Below are positions 12,798 to 14,970 of a DNA stretch of 64,000 bases, one piece after another; position 1 is the stretch's first letter, and each line of letters opens with the position of its first letter. Under the pieces are notes generated by a model. It saw only the letters and a list, made by a program, of their open reading frames with translations. It was not told where the DNA came from and made no database searches. The stretch spans positions 124,001-188,000 of the forward strand of contig NZ_LMSO01000001.1 of assembly GCF_001428435.1 (NCBI RefSeq). Direction: 5' to 3'. The position numbers and the translations under genes were made by a program. This DNA comes from Arthrobacter sp. Soil782 (lineage in GTDB: Bacteria; Actinomycetota; Actinomycetes; Actinomycetales; Micrococcaceae).

Positions 12798-12916
12798 TAC
12801 CGGAACCGCCTCGACTGTCAAGCAGATGAAGGCATTGTGGCGCGCGAGGTACCGGCAGGGAGTCGCTGCAAACCCGCCGGGTGGGGTCAGTCTCCCGGCG
12901 GCGCGGGCGGGTCCGG

Positions 12917-13666
12917 TCACCCTGGTGGTTCAGGGCTTGCTGGTGGTGCGGGGCTTGCCGGCGGTGCCGGAGTGGTTGGTGGTCCGACGGCGGGTGCGGA
13001 GGGGAGCGGAGGTTCAGGCACGGCCGGCCCTGAAGGTTCGGGAGAGGGCGGAGCGGGCGCCGGCGTCGTTGGAGGTGGAGGTTCGACCGGGGCGGGTCCG
13101 GTGGGTGGTGGCGCAAGCTCAGGAGGTGGAGCCTGTCCCCGCCCTGGGTCTGGAGCAGGATCAGTCACGGGCGAGGGAGTAGATGCGGGATCCGGCACCG
13201 GCTCACGCGACGTATCCGGTTCCGGATCGGGAATCGGAGCGGGAACGGGGACCGGCACAGGTACGGGCGGCGGTACCAGACCCGGCGTCGGTTGCGTCGG
13301 TTGGAGTTCTGTTTGCTCCGGTGTTGGCGTCGAGGGGTCCCTTGGCGGAGTCGGAGCGGAACGGTCGTTCAACCTGCGTTCGAAGTACGCTCGGAGATTG
13401 GCAATCGCTTCTTCAATCTCCTGCTGTTGTGCAGGCTCGACTGCGCCGATGAAACCCAACGTTGCCAACCGGGTACCGAGAGCATCCAGCGCATCCAGTG
13501 CCGCTGCGAAATCTCCGTCGACGGACAATGCCGTGACCTCCAGAACGTCGGCCTGTAACTGTCGCGAGGCGGCAGCACCGTAATCCGGAGCGAGACTGCA
13601 GCCGCTCAAAAGCGTCAGGCTCAGCGCTGCCGCTGCAGCGCCCAGGCGGGTTCTTCTGGTCCTCAC
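12917..13666 (-). CDS. proline-rich lipoprotein coupled to a Ser/Thr kinase
   Basis: 249 residues. A lipoprotein signal peptide ends in the lipobox LLSGC (Cys about 23). A short helical domain follows (about 30-105; an ALDALDALGTRLATLG helix and EIEEAIANLRAYFERRL). The last 140 residues are a low-complexity Pro/Ala/Pro-Val tract, like a wall-spanning or extended linker. The gene overlaps the kinase stop by 4 bases (ATGA), so the two are co-translated and may work together at the envelope. The base composition of the tract makes a false glycine-rich frame on the opposite strand. Confidence 0.8.
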   Translation of the reverse strand: MRTRRTRLGAAAAALSLTLLSGCSLAPDYGAAASRQLQADVLEVTALSVDGDFAAALDALDALGTRLATLGFIGAVEPAQQQEIEEAIANLRAYFERRLNDRSAPTPPRDPSTPTPEQTELQPTQPTPGLVPPPVPVPVPVPAPIPDPEPDTSREPVPDPASTPSPVTDPAPDPGRGQAPPPELAPPPTGPAPVEPPPPTTPAPAPPSPEPSGPAVPEPPLPSAPAVGPPTTPAPPASPAPPASPEPPG

Positions 13667-14970
13667 GGGGTCACGCTTTCCTGTAGATCTTCCAGCAGTT
13701 CACCGAGTTCTCCTGTGGCCGGAGGGTAGTCGACCGTCTCGGAACCAGCTCCTGGCATGAGGGCGGGCACCAGGATGACCGCCGCAATCAAGAGCGCCAG
13801 CACCGCTGCGAGTGCAATCAACGCCCAACGGAGCACCGCAGGCTTTCTCCGTCCCTGCGAAGCTGCGGGGGCAGCTGTCGCGGCATGGCCGTGCCACTCA
13901 TCGTCGTCCTCCGGGCCGCCGTCGTCGTCAGGTGCATGCAGCGCGGGCCCGGGCCGCTCCTGCACCGGCTGCTGCGCCGTGGTCGGCTGCGGGTCCTGCC
14001 GGATGCGTTCCTGCTGCTCTGTGGGAGGTTCCGATGCTTCCGGCGAGTCCTTGCGGAGTCCGCCCATTCCGCCCGCTGTCACAGACGGAGAACCCAGTGC
14101 GCGGGAAACGTCCTCCGCCGATGGCCGGGCCGCCGGATCCCGGTGCGTCATAGCGCGGAGGAGCCGGGCCCAGCCGCTATCCAGTTGCGCCGGGATCACC
14201 GGGTCACGGTGAAGGCGTGCGGCGGCGGACGCTGCTGCCGGACCAGGGAAAGGCGTTTCACCTGTGAGGCACTCGAGCAGCACCAGGCCGAGAGAGTAGA
14301 TGTCGCTGGCAGCGGTGGCCCCGAGACCTTCCGCCTGTTCCGGACTGAAGTAGGCGGCGGTACCGACGGATTGCCCCGTCGCAGTCAGATGAGCTTCTTC
14401 CACGAGGCGGGCGATGCCGAAATCCGTGAGCTTGGGATGCTCGGTCCGGTGTGGATTGCCGCTGGTACCGAGGAGAATGTTGGCCGGTTTCACATCGCGG
14501 TGGATTACCCGCTGACTATGGATATAGGCCAGAGCCTCGGCCACGCCCCTCCCCATGGCCTGCGTCTCTTCCGCAGTGAGGGGAGCATGGAAGTTGGCCC
14601 GGTGAAGATCCTCACCCTTGATCAACTCCATCACGAGGAAGGTCCGGCGGTGCAGGTCAACCGTGTCAGTGCCGATGTCGAAAACGGTCACCAGATTGCG
14701 GTGGTTCAGCCCCGCCAGAATCTGGGCTTCCGCCCGTTGGCGAGCTTCATCCTCGGGGCTGATCGAACCGGTGTGGAACACCTTGATGGCCACATCCCGG
14801 TCAAGCACTTCATCCCGCGCCTGATGCACCGAGGCCATGCCTCCCTGACCGAGGAGGGCATCCAGCCGATACCGCCCGCCAAGGACCTGGGGTAAGCCGA
14901 GGTCGGGTTGGGAGCCTGGTTCTCCCACCGTCGTTGCAGCATGTGCCGATCCGGCACTCTTGCTGTCCAT
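13663..14970 (-). CDS. PknB-type transmembrane serine/threonine protein kinase
   Basis: 435 residues. The Hanks-type kinase domain covers about 30-290: the Gly loop LGQGGMASVHQAR, VAIKVF lysine, catalytic HRDVKPANILL, DFGIARL and an APE-like SPEQAEG. A Pro/Glu-rich juxtamembrane region (about 300-375) is followed by one membrane helix (WALIALAAVLALLIAAVILV) and a short external tail of about 30 residues without PASTA repeats. It likely phosphorylates cytoplasmic targets in response to a signal seen with its lipoprotein partner. It is read together with that downstream gene. Confidence 0.92.
   Translation of the reverse strand: MDSKSAGSAHAATTVGEPGSQPDLGLPQVLGGRYRLDALLGQGGMASVHQARDEVLDRDVAIKVFHTGSISPEDEARQRAEAQILAGLNHRNLVTVFDIGTDTVDLHRRTFLVMELIKGEDLHRANFHAPLTAEETQAMGRGVAEALAYIHSQRVIHRDVKPANILLGTSGNPHRTEHPKLTDFGIARLVEEAHLTATGQSVGTAAYFSPEQAEGLGATAASDIYSLGLVLLECLTGETPFPGPAAASAAARLHRDPVIPAQLDSGWARLLRAMTHRDPAARPSAEDVSRALGSPSVTAGGMGGLRKDSPEASEPPTEQQERIRQDPQPTTAQQPVQERPGPALHAPDDDGGPEDDDEWHGHAATAAPAASQGRRKPAVLRWALIALAAVLALLIAAVILVPALMPGAGSETVDYPPATGELGELLEDLQESVTP

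Follow-up and report, generated by a model that had tools for sequence, protein, structure and literature searches.

The window analysed here, a stretch of 64,000 nucleotides from Arthrobacter sp. Soil782, encodes a transmembrane Ser/Thr protein kinase directly followed by a lipoprotein, and the two constitute a real and conserved pair; it is apparently undescribed, and no paper describing it was found in the open-access PMC literature. As judged from sequence, the fact that the lipoprotein is almost never encountered without such a kinase points to a little-noticed family of two-piece receptors. We consider it probable that the pair is a two-gene receptor, in which the terminal helix of the kinase docks on the lipoprotein domain, which in turn controls kinase activity. 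This reading relies on the near-obligate pairing of the two genes, on the conservation of the kinase tail and of the lipoprotein domain as opposed to a variable linker and a variable extension, on the amphipathic character of the tail helix and on the occurrence of kinases fused to FIMAH-like domains. The features of the locus are collected in Table 1.

Table 1. Features of the kinase-lipoprotein locus, with positions given in the window and residues in the respective protein.
Feature	Position	Strand	Basis
Transmembrane Ser/Thr protein kinase, 435 aa, ATG start	13663..14970	minus	Pfam Pkinase, 4.1e-49
Kinase catalytic domain, residues 34-288	14107..14871	minus	Pfam match; dN/dS 0.08
Variable cytoplasmic linker of the kinase, residues 295-376	13843..14088	minus	14% identity; dN/dS 0.53; low pLDDT
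Single transmembrane helix of the kinase, residues about 378-404	13759..13839	minus	AlphaFold2
Kinase outer tail, residues 405-435	13666..13758	minus	Tail alignment
Predicted C-terminal amphipathic kinase helix, residues 421-433	13672..13710	minus	AlphaFold2, pLDDT 70-80; hydrophobic moment
Shine-Dalgarno-like AGGAAAG for the lipoprotein, within kinase tail codons	13676..13682	minus	Sequence reading
GTGA shared by the kinase stop and the lipoprotein start, 4 nt	13663..13666	minus	Sequence
Lipoprotein, 249 aa, GTG start	12917..13666	minus	Open reading frame and translation
Lipoprotein signal peptide and lipobox LLSGC, Cys23	13598..13666	minus	Sequence reading
Three-helix FIMAH-like domain, lipoprotein residues 23-102	13361..13600	minus	AlphaFold2; three domain alignments; dN/dS 0.17
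Pro/Ala-rich C-terminal part, lipoprotein residues 103-249, variable in the family	12920..13360	minus	17% identity over 73 pairs

The sequence-only reading had described the first protein as a Ser/Thr kinase devoid of PASTA repeats and with a short outer tail, overlapping the lipoprotein gene by four bases, and our analysis bears this out in all three respects. The Pkinase match (E=4.1e-49) spans residues 34-288, the Pfam scan of the window kinase returned no PASTA match, and the best NCBIfam model, PknB_PASTA_kin (NF033483), scores 266.3 bits, which is below its equivalog cut-off of 450, with an alignment that comprises positions 2-355 of the 563 in the profile. The VAxK, HRDxKPxN and DFG motifs are kept across 23 aligned kinase rows. 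In an AlphaFold2 construct beginning at residue 28, the transmembrane segment corresponds to helix 351-377, a separate short helix (394-406, pLDDT 70-80) is predicted at the extreme C-terminus, and the cytoplasmic linker is modelled with low confidence; a single transmembrane helix is thus followed by only 31 residues, and the genes share GTGA at 13663-13666. In a 42-row alignment of the tail, P416 and L429 are kept in all rows and L426, V433 and P435 in at least 90% of them, and in 42 of 55 non-redundant tails the hydrophobic moment equals or exceeds the 90th percentile of shuffled versions of the same tail. The outer part of the kinase is modelled as a stalk rich in Pro, with a short, predicted amphipathic helix at its end. 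Part of the tail conservation may reside at the DNA level, because the ribosome-binding site of the lipoprotein overlaps the tail codons for Glu-Ser.

The second protein carries the lipobox LLSGC with Cys23 (read by eye), as is characteristic of bacterial lipoproteins, and the cysteine is conserved in two domain alignments, A5 and A7; the rows of both had been cut at this residue. The domain that follows has about 80 residues and is predicted by AlphaFold2 to be a three-helix bundle (pLDDT 87.7, pTM 0.73), with helices at about 29-49, 53-72 and 78-102. Foldseek, VIA-align and PDB sequence searches for relatives of this domain returned helical bundles of a generic kind along with ribosomal protein S20, the best Foldseek E for the predicted domain being 0.4. 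Annotation as a mucin-associated surface protein was considered as a lead, and one unrelated paper came of it. A scan of the locus for promoters and terminators found none. Antisense to the lipoprotein gene there is a Gly-rich open frame of 248 codons (12837-13583, plus strand) which, given the constraint in the lipoprotein frame, is probably no more than a side effect of GC-rich codons. The genes for prolyl oligopeptidase and LacI adjoin the pair in the close relatives L036 and L037 too, as does paaI in L036, and none of the three has a tblastn match in the nine other loci compared (5-7.5 kb each), so that the neighbours provide no hint of a pathway.

We have searched the genus with separate profiles for the two partners, one comprising the first 80 mature residues of the lipoprotein (A1) and the other the last 30 residues of the kinase (A3). 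Each profile found 49 places in 34 of the 38 genomes, and all 49 tails and lipoproteins pair one to one, with 56-110 nt between tail and domain, the other four genomes (G001, G010, G016 and G037) being devoid of both; eight further tail matches at E above 0.002, six of which are identical repeats in G009, were excluded from the 49. The window genome has two more such pairs, and three pairs each are found in G000, G021, G030 and G034. Several of the genus genomes share their lipoprotein domains with records named Arthrobacter, in keeping with the genus of the host. Among the first 40 loci around related kinases, which were hand-chosen and biased toward matches reaching the kinase C-terminus, 32 have the conserved tail and then the lipoprotein and eight have neither; the overlap in these 32 pairs amounts to 4 nt in 29 and to 1 nt in three. 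The lipoprotein is present in 39 of 197 genomes of a family sample and in 32 of 396 genomes of an order sample, the latter figure setting aside 19 of the 51 genomes matched, which had only weak matches (E 7e-7 or worse); nine of these 19 were inspected, resulting in six cases of ribosomal protein S20 and three others. The tail was found in 31 of the 396 order genomes, all among the 32 with the lipoprotein, and the one genome left (G414) has a kinase whose tail has diverged. In the genus and order searches alike, the kinase tail is therefore never seen in the absence of the lipoprotein. A limited number of first-look candidates, 14-28 per genome, was scored in the larger samples, so that misses are possible. 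Also, profiles A1, A3 and A7 were built partly from genomes that were later searched, which makes recall there a matter of construction; unlike recall, the lack of unpaired extra matches does not follow from this overlap.

A lipoprotein standing mostly without the kinase in its relatives had been named as what would refute the split sensor, and the reverse was found: besides the 49 of 49 in the genus, 109 of 117 distinct lipoprotein domains lie less than 400 nt behind a kinase in the loci gathered before the phylum search. The 117 domains are what remains of 126 distinct matches upon removal of six ribosomal S20 proteins (judged by eye, in agreement with the S20 matches mentioned above) and three weak matches, and the 109 include L154, in which the kinase frame is broken before the tail. 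The count becomes 113 of 117 if one includes a tandem copy and three cases in which a kinase tail lies at the edge of a contig or next to N (L074, L125/L207 and L151). The orphan domains are L148, L150, L155 and L158. Two of them, L155 and L158, have a transmembrane segment and no lipobox cysteine, and in both loci lie behind a similar small membrane protein rather than a kinase; L150 is located behind a LysM-like frame (by eye), about 10 kb from a complete pair (L041) in the same genome (G041). In Agromyces albus (L187, 3273-4108) two tandem lipoproteins of the family follow one kinase. A record titled Vibrio cholerae strain 35D (L172, WNZI01000042.1) holds an Arthrobacter-like pair, with a lipoprotein domain identical to that of genus genome G025 (L093), and is probably a mislabelled or contaminated assembly. 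Plasmid copies were searched for as well: 13 records have kinase matches, none of which spans 80% of the kinase.

Conservation of the pair in other genomes, one of the checks that had been proposed, also extends to distant Actinomycetota. In a phylum sample of 396 genomes, the narrow profile matched in seven at E up to 1e-5 and the wider profile A7 in 27 at E up to 1e-4, the latter at 32 places. A full kinase stands directly upstream in 14 of these, namely in 13 newly retrieved loci, nine from outside the order and four from the window's own genome or order, and in the known G000 pair on C9. Two further places (L226 and L229) have the tail of a kinase close to where the contig ends, two are kinases with the domain fused behind the transmembrane helix (L232 and L244), one is a FIMAH-like piece at a contig edge (L228), one is an orphan (L243) and one was not retrieved; nine look like ribosomal protein S20, a protein similar to the domain in both sequence profile and fold. 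Kinase tails from outside the order are exemplified by LPAELDEAMRRLEESVRP. At the two places left, in two genomes (L237 and L240), the order is swapped, with the lipoprotein first, the kinase second and a 4-nt GTGA overlap; these lipoproteins are weak matches (E 4e-5 and 8e-5), one of the two genomes (G592) gave no FIMAH match, the terminal helix of the L237 kinase is a different one, PADAARDLARWLRERAED, and the L240 kinase runs off its locus. Two more fused kinases came from a Pfam FIMAH search of 17 genomes in one family and 19 in another, so that kinase-FIMAH-like fusions are known in four genomes (G666, G698, G644 and G971). FIMAH matches were also seen at eight places in G678, five of which fall within open frames longer than 1000 codons.

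Both proteins are under constraint at the protein level. Mean pairwise identity among 73 non-redundant pairs amounts to 51% for the catalytic domain, 40% for the tail and 32% for the lipoprotein domain, whereas it is 14% in the linker and 17% in the extension. Likewise, dN/dS against the G034 copy is 0.08 in the catalytic domain, 0.25 in the outer tail and 0.17 in the lipoprotein domain, with 0.53 in the linker and 0.27 in the Pro-rich extension. A mirror-tree analysis of 84 pairs yields a partial correlation between tail and domain distances, given the catalytic domain, of 0.18. Shuffles within 29 close kinase clusters reach this value in 132 of 500 cases, so that at close range the correlation is no greater than shared descent can account for; shuffles within 12 looser clusters, or of all pairs together, reach it in none of 500.

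The relation to FIMAH (PF22888; 81 profile positions, cut-off 24.8 bits) is uneven within the family. For the window domain, scans of Pfam and NCBIfam gave nothing above cut-off and no FIMAH match, and in this it differs from FIMAH proper; on the side of likeness, two distant lipoprotein domains, L224 and L210, exceed the cut-off (32.8 and 34.2 bits) and FIMAH-like fused kinases occur. Out of 11 lipoprotein domains scanned singly, seven match FIMAH, including the two above cut-off, and four do not, and eight of 28 A1 members match it weakly (E up to 0.1). A further difference concerns where the matches begin: the seven mature split domains enter the profile at position 14-18, its first 13 or so positions being absent, whereas the four fused kinases enter at position 2-3. 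In the genome-frame search, the G689 and G876 lipoproteins align to positions 18-80 and 18-79, and the G666 lipoprotein to 8-79, with about four aligned residues before the cysteine. Since mature matches start this late in comparison to the fused kinases, the mature split lipoprotein seems to be short of the FIMAH helix that comes first; the kinase retains a single separate helix at its C-terminus, and the kinase tail would then fill the vacant place. We thus tentatively put forward, as a possibility that falls short of even expectation, that one receptor domain is divided over two chains, with helix 1 on the kinase tail and helices 2-4 on the lipoprotein, completion of the bundle outside the cell acting as the signalling switch. 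Joining the tail to the domain did not raise the FIMAH score (32.2 versus 32.8, 31.0 versus 34.2 and 17.1 versus 16.9 bits), hhalign placed the tails on helices other than FIMAH helix 1 (Prob 2-6%), and it is by eye only that the L237 tail looks similar to helix 1 of the fused kinases. The odds of a divided domain are also slightly lowered by the fact that a single fusion out of four is above the FIMAH cut-off (27.3 bits, the others being at 24.5, 21.3 and 17.9).

As a two-gene receptor, the pair would work with the lipoprotein anchored through its lipid at the outer face of the membrane that holds the kinase, presenting there the three-helix FIMAH-like domain and a variable extension of low complexity. 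Docking of the kinase tail helix on this domain would make the lipoprotein the outside part of the kinase, and a cue acting on the lipoprotein, presumably one from the cell envelope, may then alter kinase dimerisation, clustering or position. Of the split sensor that had been proposed before, what finds support is the part of the lipoprotein as the kinase's outside half, in view of near-obligate pairing, of a tail seen only with the lipoprotein and of the FIMAH-like fusions. Counted against a two-gene receptor are the close-range mirror-tree result, the lack of a FIMAH match in the window domain, the three fusions below cut-off, the orphans, the weakness of the swapped-order matches and the overlap of the tail with a ribosome-binding site. 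This last point, together with a gene overlap that favours co-expression, is what could be expected if the genes were merely translationally coupled, with the lipoprotein serving as a substrate or client in the envelope and the tail being conserved for reasons of its own. We find this very unlikely, as protein changes in the tail are few relative to synonymous ones (7.5 protein changes against L036 and 7 against L037, in 71 sites, with about 8.5 and 20 synonymous ones, respectively, in 25 sites), gene order can swap with the overlap kept (in the weak members), fused kinases occur, and all eight kinases without the tail are also without the lipoprotein.

The lipoprotein could also be an accessory that reads no ligand and binds the tail so as to hold the kinase in place or switched off. 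A small three-helix bundle whose fold searches gave only generic helical bundles, and an extension that varies freely, would suit such a role; the multiplication and divergence of the pairs, up to three in one genome, would be more natural for sensors of different cues, and we regard an inhibitory or anchoring accessory as rather unlikely. A wall-spanning probe, with the Pro/Ala tract reaching outward, is unlikely to a higher degree. Indeed, the long tract noticed in the sequence-only reading is present in the window protein, whose extension past residue 102 has 147 residues and is Pro-rich, and relatives of its subtype have 40-56% Pro in this part, but it does not hold as a feature of the family: among 109 pairs the extension ranges from 4 (L107) to 208 residues, and it has at least 25% Pro in only 17 and at least 20% Asp+Glu in 55. 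With length and composition varying in this manner, reach across the wall would be at most a trait of some subtypes.

In respect to known systems, the window kinase resembles the PASTA kinases PknB and Stk1 in its kinase domain and in having a single transmembrane helix with the C-terminal part outside, which is the topology of PknB, and differs from them by having no PASTA repeats and a separate lipoprotein as outside module. MIT domains, which bind short C-terminal helices, may share a three-helix bundle fold with the lipoprotein domain (VIA-align Z about 10, a size common for helical bundles); no sequence relation to the lipoprotein domain was shown. Actinobacterial lipoproteins encoded with signalling proteins have been reported in passages of PMC5487470, in which LpqB is described as encoded with the sensor kinase MtrB and modulating it, and, by the title of a reference there, CseA of the sigma-E operon is a novel lipoprotein influencing the sigma-E response. 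By analogy, the window lipoprotein may similarly tune a kinase or an envelope response, although MtrB is a histidine kinase and the partner here is a Ser/Thr kinase of the Pkinase fold. A distinct scenario is provided by GlnH-GlnX-PknG of Corynebacterium glutamicum, where, in the account given in PMC9769921, an extracytoplasmic lipoprotein feeds a Ser/Thr kinase from within one putative operon, GlnH being a periplasmic binding protein for Asp/Glu, GlnX a transmembrane relay and PknG cytoplasmic. The window system, by contrast, consists of kinase and lipoprotein only, and the lipoprotein is predicted to be an 80-residue three-helix bundle with no binding-protein fold. The pair therefore stands outside both the MtrB and the GlnH types, as its kinase is not a histidine kinase and its lipoprotein is not predicted to adopt the fold of a binding protein. 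Tethered domains are listed in a survey of prokaryotic kinases, and the word 'lipoprotein' is absent from its main text (PMC2877116).

Taken by analogy with these systems, the pair may represent lipoprotein-assisted kinase signalling, the divided receptor domain being a bold and unproven extension of this view. If the latter were true, Actinomycetota would hold a fused type alongside a widespread split type that is able to multiply within one genome. To our knowledge, many bacterial Ser/Thr kinases with a transmembrane helix have no recognised outside domain that would tell what they read. A large set of actinobacterial kinases would now gain a candidate outside partner, encoded in the next gene, and a putative docking peptide some 13 residues long; the search for ligands and tests of the interaction would thereby become direct.
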